33,074 nucleotides of DNA from Saprospiraceae bacterium (lineage in GTDB: Bacteria > Bacteroidota > Bacteroidia > Chitinophagales > Saprospiraceae): NCBI GenBank assembly GCA_013214355.1, contig JABSSL010000119.1, forward strand, positions 1 through 33,074. Direction: 5' to 3'. The notes under the pieces are model-generated. The model saw only the letters and a program-made list of their open reading frames with translations. It ran no database searches and was not told where the DNA came from. This document shows, piece after piece, positions 1,011 through 31,515 of the stretch (positions are counted from its first letter, which is position 1; each line of letters opens with the position of its first letter). The position numbers and the translations under genes were made by a program.

Positions 1011-3221
1011 CTACAAAACTAACCAATAATTTACTTTTAGAACCATCGCTCGGTTCTTTGGCCCGAAAAATTCCACCGCATAGTTTTCCGTATAAACGAT
1101 GAATAGGTCCGACATGGGAGCGAAACGCCATTGTAAACGACTGTTAATATTGAAGTTATCTGCTTGCGTGTTGTATTGTAAAAAGGTGGTCCAGAATAAA
1201 TTGCGATGGAAGTTGATTTCAATCCGAGGACTGAAAGCCCAGATTTCCTCCTCTCCGAATTCGTCTGGAAAGCGCAGGCGATTATATTCCACTTCCAAAC
1301 TAAAGTTACCCCAGGGCTGTGCGCGATATAAGGCAAAAGCCCCAAGGCGCGTGATATTGCCACTATAAAACGTACCAGAGGAAAGAATACCTCCATATTG
1401 GAAGAACTTGCGCTCATCCGAAGAATATTCCACCCCGAAATCATTATATACATATCTGCCTGCTGCCAGCGGAACACCGTCGGTAAAAGAAAAGGGGAAG
1501 CGCAGATCCGTTTCATTGAAGTTGGCAGAGACCGAAAATTCGCTACTGTTTTTAAACTCAAATTGATACTCTAATTCATGGCTGCGTTCTACAAAATGGT
1601 ACGTATTATCCAGTGTGAGGACGTTTTCAATGCCAAAGGAATGCTGATTTAGAATTTGGGAGTTTTTCGGTACAAAAGTCCACTCCACAGGAAAAAATAG
1701 TAAACGATAACCAAGGCGAACACTGGTATCTCGAATTGCATCATAATTCTCTAAGCGATTCACGAAACCAACATCAGCGGTGTAATTTGTACCAACATTT
1801 ACCCAATCCACAGTGGTGGAAAATACCGAACCTGTGTAAGAGCCACCTACTGTCCAAAAGTTCTGTTCATCTTGGAACTCCGGTTTAAAGGCTTGGTGAT
1901 AAGTGCCCCAACCTTGCCAGGCTCCATCCAGGCTTTGATACTCGAATTCTAGTCCTGCATTGCGCCCATAATCTCCTTTCACCTGCTCGCCTTCGTCAAA
2001 ACTCTGCCGATTGGTAAAAGTCCCCTTCAAGGTAGATCGTTGAAATACCCTTTGGTTAAAAGAAAGTGCAGTGTAGTTCTGAGCGAGCTGGTCAGTAGTA
2101 GCACGCGTCTGTGCATTCAATAAGCCGATACGGGTACTCCCCGTGATGTTACCCGTCAAGCGAGCACCAAAATCAATTGGTACCGCCCTGCCGCCTTCAT
2201 CGAGTCCAATTCGTCGAGAGAAGAAGGGGCGGAGGAGCGGATTACCGAAGTTGGTAAAAATGTCGCTGTTTTCCAGGAAGAAGGTCCGACGCTCAGGCAG
2301 GAAAATACTAAAACGCGTTAAGTTCGTCACCTGTTGATCGACCTCCACTTGTGAAAAATCCGGATTGATCGTCAGGTCCAGATTCAAAGCGGGGGTCAAG
2401 GCAATCTTGGCATCCATACCCGCAGCTAGGCTATTATTCGCCGGCTCTCCCGCCTCAAAATCTTTGTTCTGCTGCACATTCACATAGGGAATAGCCGCAA
2501 TGTTGCTAGTGAGCTTTTTCGGTGCCTCATCCCAGATCATTTTTCCAGTGTACCCCAGGTCAATCACCCAAAACTGGCGCGGCACTGGCGCCCAAGTATC
2601 TAGCCGGTTATTTTTCTTATCGTTTCGGGTGAAGTTGATCCCCCAGCTGGTCTTACCTGCCTCATACCGCAAGGTTTTGAAAGGAATTGCCATTTCTACC
2701 GTCCAGCGATCCAAGTATCGTTGCACCTCTACATACCATCGATTGTCCCATTCCCGAGAGTAATTCTCCGGCCCACTACCGCCGCCCAGCAGCACCTCGG
2801 TTTGTACTCCATACGGGCTCGCCCCAAACATAAATCCGGTAGTCGCCTCATTCAAGGGGTCCAATACTACTGCCACCGCATCCCCATCCCAAAAGCCGAT
2901 ATCTCGTTTCAAAGTCGCCACCACATGATTTGTGCTATCAAAGCAAGTAGCAGCTACATACAAGAATTGATCATCATAAGTAACCCGCATCTCTGTTCGC
3001 AATCCCGCTTTGATATCATCCCGTGGCTGTTTCTGCCAGAAATCCGTGGCTACATCAGCCTTTCTCCACACCTCCTCCTCCAGTTTCCCATCCAAAATAA
3101 TGGGGCTAGAAGTCCGCTGGATACGGATCTGATGCGATTCTTGATTTGGATTATTGTTTTGGGCGTGTGCTAAGCCAGCACAGGCAAGCCAGAGCGCCAA
3201 TATCGGTAGGGCAATTTTCAT
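1011..3221 (-). CDS. DUF5916 protein with N-terminal CBM9-like domain
   Basis: Secreted or outer-membrane protein of 736 residues. The start chosen gives a clear signal peptide (MKIALPILALWLACAGLAHAQ). After the signal, roughly residues 30-230 resemble the carbohydrate-binding family 9-like domain (ILDGKLEEEVW, then WTVEMAIPFKTLR). The rest resembles the DUF5916 beta-strand-rich region, with the family phrases NPDFSQVEVDQQ and FFLENSDIF and an aromatic, strand-alternating C-terminus ending in YWLVL, as in outer-membrane barrels. Such proteins are common in Bacteroidota. Their role is not established, although sugar or polymer handling at the cell surface is often assumed. It looks like ordinary chromosomal background outside the island. 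The family assignment is from memory of motifs. Confidence 0.85.
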   Translation of the reverse strand: MKIALPILALWLACAGLAHAQNNNPNQESHQIRIQRTSSPIILDGKLEEEVWRKADVATDFWQKQPRDDIKAGLRTEMRVTYDDQFLYVAATCFDSTNHVVATLKRDIGFWDGDAVAVVLDPLNEATTGFMFGASPYGVQTEVLLGGGSGPENYSREWDNRWYVEVQRYLDRWTVEMAIPFKTLRYEAGKTSWGINFTRNDKKNNRLDTWAPVPRQFWVIDLGYTGKMIWDEAPKKLTSNIAAIPYVNVQQNKDFEAGEPANNSLAAGMDAKIALTPALNLDLTINPDFSQVEVDQQVTNLTRFSIFLPERRTFFLENSDIFTNFGNPLLRPFFSRRIGLDEGGRAVPIDFGARLTGNITGSTRIGLLNAQTRATTDQLAQNYTALSFNQRVFQRSTLKGTFTNRQSFDEGEQVKGDYGRNAGLEFEYQSLDGAWQGWGTYHQAFKPEFQDEQNFWTVGGSYTGSVFSTTVDWVNVGTNYTADVGFVNRLENYDAIRDTSVRLGYRLLFFPVEWTFVPKNSQILNQHSFGIENVLTLDNTYHFVERSHELEYQFEFKNSSEFSVSANFNETDLRFPFSFTDGVPLAAGRYVYNDFGVEYSSDERKFFQYGGILSSGTFYSGNITRLGAFALYRAQPWGNFSLEVEYNRLRFPDEFGEEEIWAFSPRIEINFHRNLFWTTFLQYNTQADNFNINSRLQWRFAPMSDLFIVYTENYAVEFFGPKNRAMVLKVNYWLVL

Positions 3222-3501
3222 GATCGAGGTGACTAGTTCAATGTTAATCGGGTGCACTAAATTCGGCTGCAAGTATAGCACTTTTTACCAAAAGAAAAAG
3301 GGTAAATATTGCCGAATCTACCACCCTCCGCCGAAGCTAACAGCTTGGAGTCTAATTGGTTCACTGTCAATGCAGAAGACACCTAAGTGCTACAGATAAA
3401 AAACATTTGAACTACCCAAATGTAGGCAAAAGGAACTATTCCCTAGCAAAGTCTGTAGTACAAGCGAAGTAAAATTTGATTTCATTTTTTCTGGCCATTA
3501 T

Positions 3502-3549: not shown

Positions 3550-3598
3550 GGTCCCGTAGCTCAGCTGCCTGTCTACCGACAGGTAGAGATAGAGCAAC
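3550..3598 (+). pseudogene. Truncated 5' copy of tRNA-Arg with palindrome insertion
   Basis: Positions 3550-3567 are identical to the first 18 bases of the intact tRNA-Arg at 3862, and the identity reaches five bases further upstream. Positions 3589-3598 match the next part (ATAGAGCAAC). Between them, a 21-base insert at 3568-3588 replaces a single G and contains a perfect hairpin, CCTGTC-TACC-GACAGG. Similarity stops just before the anticodon stem. The anticodon, T arm and 3' acceptor strand are absent, so it cannot be a working tRNA. Confidence 0.85.
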
Positions 3599-3629: not shown

Positions 3630-3884
3630 ATGTACTACGTCTATGTTCTTAAGAGCCAACATCACTGGCGATTTTACGTCGGAATGACTAGCAATATAGC
3701 CCGTAGATTAAATGAACATAACAAGGGACGAACCAGATCAACAAAAGGATACCGTCCTTGGATTTTATTCTTTTCGGAATCCTATCCAAGTCGAGCAGAA
3801 GCGAGGAGTCGTGAGGTATATCTTAAGTCTGGTTCAGGCAAGGAATTCATAAAAGAAAAATGGTCCCGTAGCTCAGCTGGATAG
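3630..3884 (+). CDS. Small GIY-YIG nuclease ending inside the tRNA-Arg gene
   Basis: A single-domain GIY-YIG endonuclease of 84 residues. The motif is visible as YVYVLKS...FYVGMT, followed by the conserved arginine (ARRLNEHN) and a glutamate-containing helix (EARSREVYLKSGSGKEFI). This is the short UvrC/YhbQ-like type abundant in Bacteroidota. Its last residues, WSRSSAG, are encoded by the 5' end of tRNA-Arg, and its TAG stop lies in the tRNA D loop, so gene and tRNA overlap by 23 bases. A truncated copy of the same tRNA lies 312 bases upstream. The arrangement suggests a minimal element that inserts into tRNA genes and rebuilds the target, by analogy with homing endonucleases. That role is inferred, not shown. 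Confidence 0.88.
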   Translation: MYYVYVLKSQHHWRFYVGMTSNIARRLNEHNKGRTRSTKGYRPWILFFSESYPSRAEARSREVYLKSGSGKEFIKEKWSRSSAG

Positions 3885-3935
3885 AGCAACTGACTTCTAA
3901 TCAGTAGGTCACAGGTTCGAATCCTGTCGGGATCA
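3862..3935 (+). tRNA. tRNA-Arg (anticodon TCT)
   Basis: A full cloverleaf can be drawn. The acceptor GGTCCCG pairs with CGGGATC, including one G-T pair. The anticodon stem ACTGA/TCAGT closes the loop CTTCTAA, giving anticodon TCT. The T stem ACAGG/CCTGT closes TTCGAAT, and the discriminator base is A. CCA is not encoded. The 5' end overlaps the GIY-YIG gene and the 3' end is followed by a strong terminator and an integrase gene, so this tRNA is probably the insertion point of two different mobile units, one on each side. Confidence 0.95.
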
Positions 3936-3943
3936 CTAAAGGC

Positions 3944-4113: not shown

Positions 4114-5280
4114 ATGAAATTAAAGGCAATTCTCTGGAAGTACGAGCCACGGAAAGATGGTACTTGTAATATTAAGATCTATGCAAGTATTGAAGGAAAG
4201 AAGAAATACTTCAAAACGAAGCTATCTGTTTTACCGGCGGATTTTGATGAAGCTAGGGGAGAGGTGAAGCGGTCGCATCCTTCCTATAAGTTGTATAACG
4301 CTACGATTCGTAGTAAGATTCGGGAGTTGGAGGACCATCTGCTGGAAGGAGGAAGAATTCAGGATATCGGAAAGGAAAAGATAACGGAGATCATTCCGTT
4401 CTTGCAGCAGTTTATTGCGGCTACGACTGCTGGGACTACAGGAGTATCCATGACCACTATTAAGAATTACAAATCATTGCTAACTCGCTTGGAGCAATAT
4501 AGTACTACTAGAGGTGTGAAGCTGACTTTCGAAAACATTGATCTTGACTTCTATGATGACTTTAAGGCTTTCCTATTTGAAGGTGGCAAGTGTGGAATGG
4601 CAGGCTTTGGCAAGCATATCAAGATATTGAAAGCGCTCATGCGGTTGGCAATGGATAAAGGGCTGCATAATAACACCATCTTTCAGCACAAGCTATTTAA
4701 GAAGGTGACGGTCAAGACCAACAAGATTTATCTGACTAAGGAAGAAATACAGCAAATGGAGGAGTTGGACTTGTCTGATGATCCCAGTCTCGCCGCTGAG
4801 CGGGATCGATTTTTGATCAGTTACTATTTCTTGACCCGGTATAGCGATAGTGTGAAGATTCGGAAGAAAGACTTCTTTGAGAAGGGAGGTAGAACCTATT
4901 TACGATACTTCCAAGTGAAGACCGGTAAGGAATGCGTGATACCCGCTAGAGATGCAGCGCTGGCCATCCTGGAGAAACGGGATTACAATCTATCCGGAGA
5001 TACAAACCAAGAGGCCAATCGTAAGCTAAAGACGATATCAGCCATGGCCGGGATCAATACCGTGGTACAAGAGGGCGATCGTACGGGGCCTAAGTGGAAA
5101 TTTGTTACGACGCATACGGCACGGAGAAGTGCAGCTACGCACCTCGCCCTACAGGGAGTTAATTTAAAGATCATAGCTGATTTAGGGGGATGGGAGAAGG
5201 TGGAGACATTGCGGACGTATCTGCGGTCTTCAGGATTGGATAGTGCGGAGGTGGCGAAGGATTTGGCGTTTTTTAAGTAG
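4114..5280 (+). CDS. int: Tyrosine recombinase (integrase)
   Basis: Site-specific recombinase of 388 residues, of the Bacteroidota phage/ICE integrase type. The N-terminus (LWKYEPRKDGTCNIKIYA) is the Arm DNA-binding domain. A SAM-like core-binding domain follows at about 90-200. The catalytic domain shows the first arginine in SYYFLTRYSDSVKI, the HTARR box (His334, Arg337/338), a GGW motif, and the nucleophile tyrosine in RTYLRSS (Tyr369). It starts 178 bases past the 3' end of tRNA-Arg, the classic position for an enzyme that integrates into that tRNA. All catalytic residues are present, so it is probably active. No repeat of the tRNA 3' end was found further right, so the far end of the island is likely outside the window. 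Confidence 0.95.
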   Translation: MKLKAILWKYEPRKDGTCNIKIYASIEGKKKYFKTKLSVLPADFDEARGEVKRSHPSYKLYNATIRSKIRELEDHLLEGGRIQDIGKEKITEIIPFLQQFIAATTAGTTGVSMTTIKNYKSLLTRLEQYSTTRGVKLTFENIDLDFYDDFKAFLFEGGKCGMAGFGKHIKILKALMRLAMDKGLHNNTIFQHKLFKKVTVKTNKIYLTKEEIQQMEELDLSDDPSLAAERDRFLISYYFLTRYSDSVKIRKKDFFEKGGRTYLRYFQVKTGKECVIPARDAALAILEKRDYNLSGDTNQEANRKLKTISAMAGINTVVQEGDRTGPKWKFVTTHTARRSAATHLALQGVNLKIIADLGGWEKVETLRTYLRSSGLDSAEVAKDLAFFK

Positions 5281-6734: not shown

Positions 6735-7772
6735 TTAGAGGAATTTTGAGACCCAGTTTTGGAATTCCTTGTGGTCTCGCAAGTTATTTGGACCATCTTT
6801 AGGCTTTGTGTTGAAGGGAGGATCCGTATATCTTTCATAGTATTGTATCTCATCTCCGCCAAATTGTGTGAAGGTTAGCTGATATGATTCTTTGAAAACA
6901 TGGTATTCACTGATGATTAGGTTTTTTGCTTTCTCTTTTTCCCTTTTATAGTATTCGAGTTCCTGCACCGCTCTGATCTTGATCAAGATCGGGAAAAGAA
7001 AGATGGCTCCCAAGACAAGGGTGATCATCCATGATTCTGGGAATTTGCTGAAAAGGATCTTGAATCTATCAATTACGTGAGTTGAAGATTGGCTGAGCTC
7101 TTGGAACTCTGCTTGATATTCCTCCTTGGTAGCAGTAGACCAAGCTATGATTTCTTCTGTGGCAGAAATTAGGCTATCCAGCGAGGCAATTTTGTGCCTG
7201 ATCATTCCGATTTCGTTATCTGAAAAGGTATTATCATGTGAGTCTAAGAACTGGATCTCCCTTTGTTTCTCCGCTTCCAGTTCTTGGGTTTCATTACCGT
7301 ATCGGGATATTCTATCGTCCAGAAACTGGAGCCATTCTCCATTCATTTGCCTTTGCTTTGCTGCCACCACTGTTTCAAGTTCTTTGTCAATAGCTGTATG
7401 GAAGTATAATAGCTCACAGGGTTTGATGATAATCAGAAAGAACAGTACTAAACTGATACCTCGGAGCAGATAGGAAAAAGACGTGCCGACAGCTGTATTG
7501 CTTTTATTCGACGCTGGTAGGTCAAATGTAATGAGGAGAAGGCGATATAAATTCAAGAAGTTCCAACCTAGGAGAATTCCTAGGACAGCAGATAATCCGT
7601 AGTTCTCGGTGAGTAGGAAGCATAGATAGCCTCCTGATATAATGGCAAAGCCCGTTATTGCAAGTGTGAGCAACCCCAGCATGGCCAAGCGGCTTTTTTC
7701 CGCCAGGGAACAAGATTGTAGGATCGAAGGATCAATATTGTATAGTAGCCATAAAGGCCTCGCGCATCTCAT
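6735..7772 (-). CDS. Second DUF4407-like membrane protein, diverged paralogue
   Basis: 345 residues. The layout matches the neighbouring DUF4407 protein: a start resembling its 'D-SSILQKC' segment (here DPSILQSCSLAEKSR), two N-terminal membrane segments, a third near 110-127 (SLVLFFLIIIKPCELLYF), a long charged coiled-coil region (about 130-220), a fourth membrane segment (WMITLVLGAIFLFPILIK), then a charged tail. The FNIDRF motif of the paralogue is NLYRLL here, so the aspartate is lost. Its ATG overlaps the stop codon of the upstream paralogue by one base, so translation is likely coupled. The pair may form a hetero-oligomer (inference). Confidence 0.75.
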   Translation of the reverse strand: MRCARPLWLLYNIDPSILQSCSLAEKSRLAMLGLLTLAITGFAIISGGYLCFLLTENYGLSAVLGILLGWNFLNLYRLLLITFDLPASNKSNTAVGTSFSYLLRGISLVLFFLIIIKPCELLYFHTAIDKELETVVAAKQRQMNGEWLQFLDDRISRYGNETQELEAEKQREIQFLDSHDNTFSDNEIGMIRHKIASLDSLISATEEIIAWSTATKEEYQAEFQELSQSSTHVIDRFKILFSKFPESWMITLVLGAIFLFPILIKIRAVQELEYYKREKEKAKNLIISEYHVFKESYQLTFTQFGGDEIQYYERYTDPPFNTKPKDGPNNLRDHKEFQNWVSKFL

Positions 7773-28169: not shown

Positions 28170-28469
28170 ATGAACTCTAATGTCTTACAAGCATTGTTGG
28201 AGAACACTGCTGCCATGCAAAAATTGATCGAGTTGATCGAAGCGAAGGAGACTCGCTCAGACTGGGTAGACCCTGAAGAGGCAGCCCGTATTCTTGGCCT
28301 TAATATCACGGCGGCAAATAACCATCGGAAGCAGTTGAATTGGTTGATTAATAAGGGATTTCTAAAGCAGTTTCGAATGGGACGACCGCCGGTTTATTAC
28401 CGATCAGAGTTGGAGAAGGTGTCTAAAAAGATTGCTTGTGGTGAGATTGGGTATGTGGGGAGGGCTTAA
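28170..28469 (+). CDS. Small helix-turn-helix protein
   Basis: 99 residues. A coiled-coil-like N-terminus (ENTAAMQKLIELIEAKE) leads into a DNA-binding domain (WVDPEEAARILGLNITAANNHRKQLNWLINKGFLKQFRMGR cut across two helices and a wing). The pattern is that of excisionase or MerR-like HTH_17 proteins of Bacteroidota mobile elements, although the ending FRMGRPPVYYRSELEKV also fits a winged helix. It diverges from the Xre repressor and precedes the structured noncoding tract, so it could be the early regulator or excision factor. Confidence 0.75.
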   Translation: MNSNVLQALLENTAAMQKLIELIEAKETRSDWVDPEEAARILGLNITAANNHRKQLNWLINKGFLKQFRMGRPPVYYRSELEKVSKKIACGEIGYVGRA

Positions 28470-28660: not shown

Positions 28661-28843
28661 ATCTAATGCTCTATGTAATAGTGAGTTGTGATAGGTTGTC
28701 GGTGTGTTTTTGTTGCTGATTGCTTTAGTGGATACTGGATTAGATTAGGCTTATTTCTTTGTTTGTGGCCATTGGCCGGACGCGCTCTTTATATGTTTTT
28801 TAATGCTTAGTTGAGGATTGTAGGTGCCTTTTGGTGCTGATTT

Positions 28844-28900
28844 CGCAGGAGCCTAGGTGGGTTACTCTTAGGGTAGTGTGGTTCGATTCCACGCCTTGCG
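28844..28900 (+). ncRNA. tRNA-like element 1
   Basis: CGCAGGA (28844-28850) pairs with CCTTGCG (28894-28900), six of seven pairs including one wobble. T stem TGTGG/CCACG closes the canonical T loop TTCGATT (28882-28888). A hairpin CCTAGG/CTTAGG with a nine-base loop replaces the D and anticodon arms. Outer bases CTGAT/ATCAG add a further stem. At 57 bases it lacks a normal D arm, so it is not a standard tRNA. Confidence 0.55.
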
Positions 28901-28931
28901 GCTGTATCAGTAAGCGATTCATTTTTCGGTA

Positions 28932-28970
28932 CTGAGGCCAGAGCGGTTAGATTAACCTTCTCTGGGTCAG
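28932..28970 (+). other. Strong hairpin H1
   Basis: CTGA, CCAGAG and GGTTA pair with TAACC, CTCTGG and TCAG in order, giving 15 pairs with small internal loops. The apical part (AGAGCGGTTAGA) resembles a tRNA D arm. Confidence 0.6.
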
Positions 28971-28974
28971 CAAC

Positions 28975-29001
28975 TATTGACCAAACTCGTTTGCGTCAAT
29001 A
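28975..29001 (+). other. Strong hairpin H2
   Basis: TATTGAC plus CAAA pairs with TTTG and GTCAATA, with one bulged C and a CTCG tetraloop, for eleven pairs in all. Confidence 0.6.
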
Positions 29002-29014
29002 AGGTCTTTTAGGG

Positions 29015-29032
29015 CCCGGCTATGGTGCCGGG
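29015..29032 (+). other. Perfect GC hairpin H3
   Basis: CCCGGC and GCCGGG pair perfectly around the loop TATGGT. It sits six bases before the second tRNA-like element. No T run follows, so it is not a standard terminator. Confidence 0.6.
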
Positions 29033-29037
29033 ACTTT

Positions 29038-29083
29038 GCAGAGGCCTGGTGGAGGATTTCGAGGTTCGATTCCTTGGCTCTGC
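29038..29083 (+). ncRNA. tRNA-like element 2
   Basis: GCAGAGG (29038-29044) pairs with GCTCTGC (29077-29083), six of seven. T stem CGAGG/CCTTG closes TTCGATT (29065-29071). Only a three-pair mini-hairpin (CCT/AGG) replaces the D and anticodon arms. At 46 bases it is an acceptor plus T-arm minihelix. The start GCAGAGGCCTGGTGGA faintly resembles a tRNA-Ser/Leu 5' end. Confidence 0.55.
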
Positions 29084-29132
29084 GCGATTAAGCGGCCTAT
29101 CATGGCATATGTGCTGGTGGGGTAGGGAAGTT

Positions 29133-29194
29133 GTTTTCTGCCCGCCAGTTTTTCCTGGGATGGCGTACTGAGGTTCGACTCCTCGGCAGGAAAC
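29133..29194 (+). ncRNA. tRNA-like element 3
   Basis: TTTCTGC (29135-29141) pairs with GCAGGAA (29186-29192), seven of seven with one wobble, and the helix extends by GT/AC. A CGCCA/TGGCG hairpin follows, then the T stem TGAGG/CCTCG closing TTCGACT (29174-29180). No encoded CCA. It is the best-formed of the three three-way junctions. Confidence 0.55.
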
Positions 29195-30018
29195 GAAACC
29201 GTCAGGCAGTTAGGGCTGACTGAGTGGCAGTGGCAAGCATGGTTCCATCAGTGAGTTTGATTTGTGGCTTGCCCTGCTACTTTTTATCTTCTAAAACTTA
29301 TTGCTATGTGTTTGAAGAATGTTGATGCTGACCAAAGCAGACCGGGAAGTTCAGGAACTCCTTTGCGTCGAGCATATCAGGTGAAGTGGGCCAAGTCCAA
29401 GAAGCTCTTGGATGGGTACATGGAGTGTTATAATGAGGGCTTACCATTGCGGAAGCAATTGCGTGCGAGTCATAAAGCGTTGGGACAGTATCTACTATTC
29501 CTGTACAGTAGGGTAGTAGCTAAGGAACAGGGCTATGGTGCTGGCGTGGAAGCTGGGCAGCCCTTACCAGTATTGCGGACGAACAATGTGCAGCTGAGTA
29601 AGGCGATGGGCTGCAGTGAACGGACGATTATCAATCTGCGGGAGCGATTGAAGGAAGCACAGATTATCGTGAGTGAACGATTCCGAGGATCTAATGCCTC
29701 TTATGAGCTAGAAATATCGGGAGCGGTGATCCATATCCAGGAGGTGGGAGAGCCAGGAAATGTAGTGCATTTATTTCCGAATACAGCGCAAAGTTTGCGT
29801 CATACAGTAACCAGAACTATACAGGATACAAATAAATTAATAGAATTAGACGGACCTGTTTTTCAACAAGCTGCTGATTATCAGGCTAATGAGTGGAAAA
29901 GCACTGTGGAAAACGCTTTGAATTCTTGTGGAAAGTGGAATAATGATGTTGAAAACCAGGAATTGAGCAGCATACTGGATACACAGGATACTAGGGCAGG
30001 TTACGAAACCGTCAGGCA
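29193..30018 (+). repeat. 16-base direct repeat, ends at 29193-29208 and 30003-30018
   Basis: ACGAAACCGTCAGGCA occurs at 29193-29208, overlapping the 3' end of tRNA-like element 3, and again at 30003-30018 inside the winged-helix-like gene at the start of its GC-rich linker. Sixteen identical bases 810 apart are unlikely by chance and may mark a duplicated end of an inserted sequence. The span given covers both copies and what lies between. Confidence 0.6.
29227..29270 (+). other. Long-range hairpin H4 near the next start codon
   Basis: GCAG-T-GGCAAGC at about 29227-29240 pairs with GCTTGCC-CTGC at about 29257-29268, eleven pairs with one bulge. It ends some 38 bases before the ATG at 29306 and could shape the leader of that gene. 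Confidence 0.5.
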
Positions 30019-30712
30019 CGAGCAAGGAACGCCCCCCGAGTTGCGCGGGACCCCCCAGGGGCAAATGCGAAATGGGAAGTTGGAAGGTGGGAGAGATCTT
30101 ACTGAGAAAGAGAACGGGCAAGGGGGAAGGGCGAAGCCGGAAATGAGAATAGTCCGAGATTATGCTCCTAGCAGGCTGGAAGATGTATTGGCTGGATTAA
30201 ACTCGGAGGATGCCAATGCGATTCGTCGGCATGTGACAGTCATTTGGACCTGTGCGCTGATGAACCTGTATCAAGACAAATGGATAGCTGATGAAGAAGT
30301 AGAACGAACCAAGGCCGTACTGGCTGAGTACTTGGTTTATGCCGACCCCAGTCGATATCAAGCAGGAACAGCGGAGATCTTGGAGCGAATCATCCTAGTA
30401 CGTAGATGGATAAAACGCGGGCAGAAACAAGGAATACGTAGATGGGTGCCATTGCCATCTCGCTACTTCGACTATCGGAATGAAAACGGCTTTACGAAAA
30501 CCAAAAAATGGTTCAAAGCCCATATCAAGGCCAAATCAGAGATCAAGGCCAAGGAACTGCTAACAAAGGCGATCAAGGAATACTTGAAATCCAAGACAGG
30601 AGGAGCAAAGATTGGTCCATCAGAGACCTATCGAAGGATTGCACAACGACTAGGCAAATATGATCAAGAACTTTTAAACCAATTCCATGAACAGATTGCA
30701 AAAGTCTCGTAG
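29306..30712 (+). CDS. Winged-helix-like protein of unknown role
   Basis: 468 residues from ATG 29306; an in-frame GTG at 29264 would add 14 poorly fitting residues inside hairpin H4. Residues about 20-150 look like a helical plus winged-helix DNA-binding region (LRASHKALGQYLLFLYSRVV, then QLSKAMGCSERTIINLRERLKEAQII). Residues about 228-280 form a polar low-complexity linker encoded by GC-rich sequence unlike the rest. The C-terminus is basic and helical. Not recognised as a known family. By its position after a structured noncoding tract it could be a replication or mobilisation initiator, which is inference only. It overlaps the next gene by 26 bases. Confidence 0.75.
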   Translation: MCLKNVDADQSRPGSSGTPLRRAYQVKWAKSKKLLDGYMECYNEGLPLRKQLRASHKALGQYLLFLYSRVVAKEQGYGAGVEAGQPLPVLRTNNVQLSKAMGCSERTIINLRERLKEAQIIVSERFRGSNASYELEISGAVIHIQEVGEPGNVVHLFPNTAQSLRHTVTRTIQDTNKLIELDGPVFQQAADYQANEWKSTVENALNSCGKWNNDVENQELSSILDTQDTRAGYETVRHEQGTPPELRGTPQGQMRNGKLEGGRDLTEKENGQGGRAKPEMRIVRDYAPSRLEDVLAGLNSEDANAIRRHVTVIWTCALMNLYQDKWIADEEVERTKAVLAEYLVYADPSRYQAGTAEILERIILVRRWIKRGQKQGIRRWVPLPSRYFDYRNENGFTKTKKWFKAHIKAKSEIKAKELLTKAIKEYLKSKTGGAKIGPSETYRRIAQRLGKYDQELLNQFHEQIAKVS

Positions 30713-30974
30713 TCGTGACAAGCGACCACGAAAGAAAGACATCCGGGGGAGGCACAAGTTGGCCGTATTCTTCTTAGATCACCGTCAGCCCAAAGGACAA
30801 GCCTATTACTTCTATAGCACCTTACGGCAGGACCAAAATCAGACCGCAAAGCAAAGGCTTCGATATCTGGTAAATAAAAAATGGCAGGGACTTGTGAGCT
30901 GGGCGGGGCTGTATTATTGTAATGTGTTGATTGCGGAATATAGTGTAAGTGACAACTGCTGGCGGCAGGTTTGA
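30687..30974 (+). CDS. Small basic protein of unknown function
   Basis: 95 residues. It begins inside the end of the upstream gene (26-base overlap in another frame), which suggests translational coupling. Lys/Arg-rich N-terminus (SRSRDKRPRKKDIRGRHK), then a compact part with many Tyr and Trp (GQAYYFYSTLRQDQ, WAGLYYCNVLIAEY). No known family. The charge suggests nucleic-acid binding. Structured copy B starts 10 bases after its stop codon. Confidence 0.65.
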   Translation: MNRLQKSRSRDKRPRKKDIRGRHKLAVFFLDHRQPKGQAYYFYSTLRQDQNQTAKQRLRYLVNKKWQGLVSWAGLYYCNVLIAEYSVSDNCWRQV

Positions 30975-31143: not shown

Positions 31144-31515
31144 ATGCATATTAGTTCAATTGAAACTTCAATCAGGAAAAAATCAATGGCAAAGGTGCTC
31201 AAAGGAGGTAAAATAGCCGTCAAGATCGGTAAGGAGACAATGGAAGTGCTGCGACTTGCTGTGCAGCAGCGACTTCATTTTGAATCGCTACCGGATCACT
31301 TGCACTACCTACTAGAGGAAGCTTTGGAACGGCTAGAAGGTAAGACCTGCAAGCTACGAAAGAGTGAATTCTTTGCCGTTTTTCAGGAGGAGACGATGCA
31401 ATATGTGGATATACCGACGCAGCTTTTGATTAGGCAGGCAGTGGAACTGGAGCAAGAAACAAAGATGATTGCTATTCCATTAAGCCTGGAAGAGCAAAAA
31501 AGTATACCCATCTAG
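31144..31515 (+). CDS. Small protein of unknown function
   Basis: 123 residues from ATG 31144, or 109 from the ATG at 31186, which is preceded by AGGAAAA at good spacing and gives MAKVLKGGKIAVKIGKETME; the second start is at least as likely. Mostly helical and charged, with no membrane segment and no known family. The middle has ESLPDHLHYLLEEALERL. It opens a run of small plus-strand genes at the right of the window. Confidence 0.65.
   Translation: MHISSIETSIRKKSMAKVLKGGKIAVKIGKETMEVLRLAVQQRLHFESLPDHLHYLLEEALERLEGKTCKLRKSEFFAVFQEETMQYVDIPTQLLIRQAVELEQETKMIAIPLSLEEQKSIPI

Follow-up and report, generated by a model that had tools for sequence, protein, structure and literature searches.

The window, as we term the whole 33,074-nucleotide stretch of contig JABSSL010000119.1 from a Saprospiraceae bacterium, codes towards one end for a putative replication initiator, whose leader contains an array of three tRNA-like elements (E1–E3). 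The last of these is followed by a short tail that recurs within the gene itself. The relevant features are listed below, with bit scores from R1, a model built from the curated elements described further on.

4114–5280, + strand: tyrosine integrase, adjoining tRNA-Arg (3862–3936)
28170–28469, + strand: 99-aa ORF upstream of the array, which we take to code for a DNA-binding protein; similar ORF (by eye) in locus L005; no Pfam match
28844–28900, + strand: E1, with acceptor, D-like loop, short extra hairpin and T arm; R1 31.8 bits; used to build R1
29038–29083, + strand: E2, tRNA-like module without an anticodon arm; R1 25.4 bits; used to build R1
29152–29192, + strand: E3, tRNA-like module without an anticodon arm, the last before the gene, its tail repeated in the gene; R1 27.0 bits; used to build R1
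29193–29208, + strand: tail ('guide'), ACGAAACCGTCAGGCA, directly 3' of E3 and identical to 30003–30018
29222–29285, + strand: strong hairpin followed by TTTTT, a putative terminator, between tail and gene
29306–30712, + strand: putative replication initiator gene, open frame from 29264; N-terminal winged helix, disordered linker and helical C-terminal domain
29999–30018, + strand: internal site, GGTT followed by ACGAAACCGTCAGGCA, in the linker-coding part of the gene; candidate origin site
30687–30974, + strand: small ORF that begins within the 3' end of the initiator gene and runs past it; in homologous loci the gene is followed by small ORFs that look similar by eye
31144–31515, + strand: second small ORF; similar one (by eye) in homologous loci; no Pfam match

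The position of the integrase beside tRNA-Arg suggests that the locus probably lies within an integrated element. The window additionally carries a gene of GmrSD type and genes for type I restriction. In L025 there is an integrase whose Pfam domains are those of the window integrase, and the flanks of L023 and L026 show matches to GmrSD, DUF3644 and an effector-associated domain in genes beside the initiator gene. An 18-bp copy of the 5' end of tRNA-Arg (3862–3879) is seen at 3550–3567, 312 bp upstream of the intact gene, and is perhaps the remnant of an earlier integration.

The genome has three copies of the initiator gene: that of the window, one on contig C84 (protein 90% identical to that of the window, with the 434-base array region 94% identical in DNA) and one on contig C191 (43% protein identity). 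Homologues were recovered from 18 of 398 genomes drawn from the family and from 13 of 396 drawn from the order, the latter set overlapping the former, and the named relatives comprise uncultured Lewinella, Lewinella sp. W8 and a Chitinophagales MAG. A genus-level search added nothing new, and no relatives of the protein were found in phage records or viral contigs. Homologues are also present on two plasmids of Haliscomenobacter hydrossis, pHALHY01 and pHALHY02, with defence-type genes nearby. As each of these plasmids has another annotated replication gene, the gene may there represent a second or formerly separate replicon; their cumulative GC skew (not detrended) was uninformative.

The predicted structure of the protein, of modest confidence (mean pLDDT 57.8, from seven sequences), has a winged helix-turn-helix (wHTH), a disordered linker and a helical C-terminus, with residues 152–283 modelled at a pLDDT below 50, as for a long linker. 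Among the phage-type initiator profiles considered (PHROG 270, 186 and 345), phrog_270, a replication initiation protein, matches five of eight members (best 4.7e-5); for the window protein only phrog_7874 was matched, at a non-significant 0.13. PF13730 is weakly matched in seven of the eight members; HTH_36 and HTH_29 are found in seven of eight, falling below the cut-off in the window protein. At E ≤ 1 the eight members match 11 families, of which the RepA_N domain (PF06970) is not one. In Foldseek searches against the PDB no match fell below E 0.001; the best were CodY (E 0.076) and regulators of the MarR type, and the matches also include RepE54 (0.27) and N-terminal domains of initiators (0.18–0.55). 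The viral structure models matched include several annotated replication initiators, the best match (E 0.003) being to an unnamed protein. Thus, the initiator signals from the protein itself are weak, and the predicted folds, led by CodY and the MarR-type proteins, would also be compatible with a regulator instead of an initiator. Nevertheless, we consider the product to be probably a plasmid-type replication initiator.

The elements of the leader had been noted in a first-pass annotation made from the letters alone, which described three T-loop/acceptor units interleaved with strong hairpins. All three are present on the forward strand. E1 pairs the acceptor strands CGCAGGA/CCTTGCG and has the T loop TTCGATT; E2 pairs GCAGAGG/GCTCTGC with the same T loop; and E3 pairs TTCCTGG/GCAGGAA with the T loop TTCGACT. 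Each acceptor stem has six pairs and then a mismatch where the T stem joins. The region from 28837 to 29290 is strongly structured (z −4.14, with none of 100 shuffles as stable), and the hairpins between the elements appear in that fold. By themselves the elements fold less impressively: E1 has moderate stability (z −2.11), its fold consisting of the acceptor and the T arm, E2 folds weakly (z −1.38), and for E3 (z 0.15) minimum free energy folding did not recover the module. Hence, the case for the modules rests on comparison. At a stringency of five T-stem and seven acceptor pairs (T5/A7), a pattern scanner gives three hits in the window leader and none on either strand of positions 1–28700.

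We scanned the leaders of 25 homologous loci, taking 600 nt from each. The strict pattern, a T loop with five T-stem pairs and seven acceptor pairs, gave 17 hits in 14,759 nt, distributed over 12 of the 25 loci, against 0.01 per shuffle, none on the antisense strand and none in 587,514 nt of plasmid strands, placing the elements beyond chance. A looser version hit 17 of 25 loci against 0.78 expected, yet it also produced 35 hits in the plasmid strands. The leader of L051 was measured from a match starting inside the gene, so that its module falls outside the scanned stretch. Nineteen curated elements were aligned (A3). As these were chosen because they pair, the proportion of paired cells (94.7% against 54.7% when shuffled) is biased, and the presence of the T loop TTCGA in all 19 is partly a product of the search pattern; more weight attaches to the scanner controls and to the covariation score, which is 1.052 against 0.221 in shuffles and at most 0.28 when the partner strand is slid by one to three columns. 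Of the five pair measures, two are less decisive: the pairs changed on both sides (11 against 9.4 in shuffles, reached by 11 of 500) and the number of further pair types (35, where shuffles average 30.3 and 31 of 500 do as well). The first-pass claim that the stems vary while pairing is kept therefore holds, the drift being compensated, and the alignments indicate that the modules are conserved as structures with compensatory changes in their stems.

The same annotation had suggested looking for the array upstream of homologues of the gene. R1 finds modules at E < 0.05 in 18 of the 25 loci, of which 13 had contributed to the model and five (L007, L025, L026, L039 and L042) had not. The association thus holds for most loci and is less than universal: L015 (pHALHY02) scores only E 0.39, and R1 gives no module in six loci, namely L017/L030 (pHALHY01), L032, L037, L049, L050 and L056. 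Elsewhere in the genome of the window R1 has two hits (E 0.4–0.6), both overlapping ordinary tRNAs in a tRNA array, and a search of 150 genomes of the family gave ten weak hits (E 0.008–0.02) outside the known loci, eight of them in loci with an ARAGORN tRNA or tmRNA and two (L078 and L083) without. The tRNA array just mentioned, L071 (contig C171, 1–3062), comprises 10 tRNA genes called by ARAGORN, all on the same strand and some separated by non-tRNA stretches; two of its tRNAs are overlapped by the weak R1 hits.

The absence of a cloverleaf, another first-pass claim, is right insofar as neither ARAGORN nor Rfam (RF00005, gathering threshold) calls a tRNA at E1–E3, the only tRNA of the window being tRNA-Arg at 3862. 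The linker that joins the 5' acceptor strand to the T stem is, however, not empty: it contains GG in all 20 hand-split elements, and a small hairpin with GG in its loop, resembling the D arm of a tRNA, is possible in 13 of the 20 (200 shuffles: mean 5.8, maximum 11). We therefore regard tRNA-like modules that lack an anticodon arm as the best description of these elements. We also observed more tRNA-like units upstream of modules in two loci: in L009, the C191 copy, ARAGORN calls a 71-nt tRNA-Tyr (GTA) with a very small D loop at 3221–3291 on the minus strand, and L027 has, at about 7538–7642 on the plus strand, an element whose D and T arms look normal and whose anticodon region is enlarged and disrupted.

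An unexpected feature of the locus, which is absent from the first-pass annotation, is the tail of E3. The 16 bases that follow the module recur exactly, on the same strand, at 30003–30018 within the gene, after a GGTTA motif. A 13-mer shared by the two copies occurs, in the whole genome, twice in each of two near-identical loci and nowhere else. In other loci the leader and gene copies are unlike those of the window, yet they resemble each other. When the whole leader was searched, the leader/gene match was significant at p ≤ 0.05 in 20 of 25 loci and at p ≤ 0.01 in 16; those falling short were L015 (0.095), L054 (0.067), L049 (0.072), L050 (0.065) and L030x (L016), whose copy at −794 lies beyond the 700 nt searched and is visible in a separate alignment. 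In 20 of the 25 loci a Gly-Tyr codon motif defined the site (for L025 and L026, whichever copy of this motif gave the match). For L009, L043 and L032 we used a relaxed motif, picked once the match was known, and in L042 and L044 the site is simply where the match fell; with the plain Gly-Tyr motif, p ≤ 0.05 was reached in 15 of 20 loci. L053 (gene cut off ahead of the linker), L008 and L024 (no leader) and L088 (no match ≥ 7.5) were dropped from this test. The counts are not independent, since the loci are related: near-duplicates were kept (window/L007, L015/L030x (L016), L025/L026 and L049/L050), and L035, L036 and L051 are related to one another.

The sense match exceeds the antisense match in 23 of the 25 loci, and hence complementary rather than direct repeats are not favoured. 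When tails were swapped among genes, 10 of 19 loci had a tail (that following the last module) which fitted its own gene, at the internal site, better than it fitted any of the 18 others. The remaining nine are L004, L015, L030x, L053, L054, L039, L025, L026 and L051, the best match of L051 being located elsewhere. The tails of E1 and E2 in the window, L004 and L005 have no gene partner above background. In 13 of the 19 swap-test loci, and in L051 too, the start of the matching tail and the end of a module are no more than 2 nt apart. The leader copy does not abut the module in L025, L026, L039 and L054, where it lies 78–95 nt before the gene; in L095 it is at −60, and in L037 and L056 the repeat is present and the module absent. 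The repeat pair is therefore the more constant part of the system and the module the less constant one. The gene copy lies about 700–1500 nt downstream of its leader counterpart. As for the contig start of L034, which we considered as a recombination product, that contig does not start at the site.

Constraint on the internal site acts at the nucleotide level: where the site has glycine, the codon is GGT in 18 of 20 cases, against 22% of the glycine codons in these genes, and the following codon ends in AC in 20 of 20, even where the residue changes (22 genes were looked at for codons, near-duplicates included). GGTTA stands directly before the gene copy, exactly in 15 of 22 genes and as variants in most others, and in none of the aligned leader copies. 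The array first noticed from the letters is genuine: it forms a conserved leader of tRNA-like character that belongs to a probable replication gene and is coupled to a site within it.

The differences between the two copies are themselves informative. In cores of 21 loci, typed by hand from local alignments, there are 30 mismatches, comprising 13 transversions and 17 transitions; in nine of the latter the leader has G and the gene A, in eight the leader has T and the gene C, and the reverse never occurs (17 to 0). Base composition leads one to expect 55% in the favoured direction, and if only eight of the 17 were independent, p would still be about 0.009. Just outside the counted cores we saw a leader C against a gene T (L007) and a leader G against a gene A (L049/L050). 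With all transitions in one direction, pairing of a leader RNA with the bottom strand of the gene copy would survive them through G–U wobbles. The mismatches are mostly mid-site, as judged by eye. Folding did not support the notion that the tail is presented single-stranded: it is predicted to be more unpaired than its region in only five of 14 loci.

What the comparisons show is the modules with their covarying stems, the repeat shared by leader and gene, a constraint on nucleotides and transitions of wobble type in one direction. A role in replication is likely, though an inference. Our preferred reading, which we hold tentatively, is that the locus is the control region of a mobile replicon, a plasmid or an integrative element, in which the tail of a leader RNA pairs with an origin strand. 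The leader would be transcribed into a structured RNA with one to three anticodon-less tRNA-like modules, a 12–20 nt tail and a terminator-like hairpin. The internal site following GGTTA in the linker-coding part of the gene is, by analogy with RepA_N plasmids, probably the origin; the tail may pair there with the bottom strand, forming an R-loop that serves as primer or copy-number regulator. Since GGTTA is found on the gene copy alone and the co-varying part on both, one would expect the former to be read by a protein, presumably Rep, and the latter by base pairing. Host RNase P, RNase Z and CCA-adding enzyme may trim or stabilise the RNA via its tRNA-like modules. Several observations speak against this reading: wobble offers no excuse for the 13 transversions, the C/T difference beside the L007 core runs opposite to the counted transitions, the predicted folds seldom leave the tail open and do not recover E3, six of 25 loci give no R1 module, the leader copy stands apart from the module in four loci, and pHALHY01 and pHALHY02 have other annotated replication genes. 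A more specific version, RNA-guided origin use, in which the 12–20 nt guide tail of the leader RNA pairs with the origin strand within the initiator gene, beside a GGTTA motif that the initiator reads, and primes or licenses replication of the element, strikes us as rather unlikely, if worth stating.

A plausible though doubtful alternative is that both copies are DNA sites for Rep, the internal one being an origin within rep and the leader one an operator for autoregulation or handcuffing, with the modules serving separately in leader processing or stability. A winged helix is predicted in Rep, plasmids commonly have iteron/operator pairs, the repeat occurs without the module (L037 and L056) or away from it (L025, L026, L039 and L054), and the mid-site position of most mismatches is what two half-sites would give. 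Against this, GGTTA is missing from the aligned leader copies, the sense orientation scores higher in nearly all loci, the transitions run one way and the tail mostly begins right at the module. The wobble asymmetry, along with the presence of the motif on a single copy and of the co-varying stretch on both, favours pairing between the leader RNA and the origin strand; we regard such pairing, from sequence comparison, as the better of two live mechanisms, with the Rep-site explanation staying close. The same asymmetry fits pairing of the leader RNA with a bottom strand of either RNA or DNA, and so would agree with bottom-strand transcription within rep, yielding an antisense RNA that pairs with the leader tail and represses rep, as in other plasmids. 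Antisense control is known for the staphylococcal RepA_N plasmids, according to the passages of PMC5703833 consulted. However, such an RNA would pair with the rep mRNA as well, and no promoter-like sequence was seen by eye on the bottom strand just downstream of the internal site, leaving this explanation improbable.

That the elements are degenerate tRNA genes or attachment-site remnants left by integration appears very improbable. An integrase is found in the window and near L025, and a tRNA-Tyr gene is called in L009; on the other hand, the 5' strands are matched and both stems show compensatory changes, so that the covariation disfavours decay, and the two other R1 hits in the genome overlap ordinary tRNAs. 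Of the first-pass readings, the data are compatible with four: an RNA that mimics tRNA, a leader that is processed, a domain like that of tmRNA and a fold linked to an origin. The annotation had also listed decoys for tRNA-targeting enzymes, and restriction and other defence genes do lie near these loci; but the anticodon arm, the usual target of tRNA-cleaving enzymes, is missing, the constant partner gene is initiator-like rather than an effector, and the tail matches that partner, so that decoys or a defence-related small RNA seem the least probable explanation of all. As regards a rolling-circle origin or an origin of transfer, no relaxase or HUH Rep was seen among the ORFs scanned.

Several known systems resemble parts of this locus. 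In the passages of PMC5703833 consulted, the RepA_N theta plasmids pSK41 and pPR9 have an initiator with a wHTH N-terminus (pfam13730 in the pPR9 Rep), a conserved C-terminal domain and RNA control in the leader, and in pSK41-type plasmids the origin lies centrally in rep, its product being a dispensable linker. The predicted wHTH, a linker coded at the candidate origin, the predicted C-terminal domain and a putative leader RNA would be the counterparts here, and pfam13730 is weakly matched. The RepA_N plasmids differ in their antisense RNA control and four Rep boxes in the gene, and tRNA-like modules do not figure in those passages; conversely, the proteins studied here lack the RepA_N Pfam match, unlike RepA_N initiators. 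The tRNA-like domain of tmRNA likewise combines acceptor and T arm in an elbow without an anticodon arm, and R1 also picks up a tmRNA (L077). A tmRNA has a tag-peptide ORF, however, and here there are several short modules in a row, with neither a tmRNA nor a tag-peptide reading frame called in the window (ARAGORN/Rfam for the former).

The phage P4 CI and P1 c4 RNAs are small structured leader RNAs (of the replication operon in P4) that are processed by RNase P and act by complementary stretches. A leader-derived structured RNA would be common to both cases, whereas the stretches here are direct repeats, with the sense match exceeding the antisense one instead of P4 CI-type complementarity. 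Primer RNAs such as ColE1 RNA II pair with the template strand at the origin in cis, at the site of their transcription; the proposed pairing with an origin strand is alike, the match here lying about 700–1500 nt downstream. OMEGA RNAs of TnpB are structured RNAs with a 3' guide-like tail and a target beside a constant motif. These last two traits recur here, but no gene for a TnpB-like or other RNA-guided nuclease was seen among the ORFs scanned, and the 13-mer is limited in its own genome to the leader/gene pairs of this locus type.

In the portions of the literature searched, on tRNA-like structures in plasmid replication, primers, copy number, rep leaders and RNA-guided origins, and on Haliscomenobacter or Saprospiraceae plasmid replication, no such system is described. 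If the tail acts by pairing, the choice of origin in this replicon would fall to an RNA with an architecture borrowed from tRNA. It is an old idea that tRNA-like structures tag genomes for replication, and pairing by the tail would offer a testable link to it. These loci hint at an unrecognised RNA-based way to control or start DNA replication in Lewinella-like bacteria. Even if the copies are protein sites, these loci define a family of replicons in Saprospiria whose RNA leader we did not find described in the part of the literature searched. The module, tail and GGTTA site together provide a signature by which the family can be recognised.

L025 (Lewinella sp. W8) has three module-like hits between −741 and −180 of the gene, two of them followed by CCA, unlike the tRNA-Arg of the window, which has no encoded CCA. 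The two Haliscomenobacter plasmids share a nearly identical stretch immediately before the gene, at about 5789–5880 in L015 (pHALHY02) and about 262–342 in L016 (pHALHY01).
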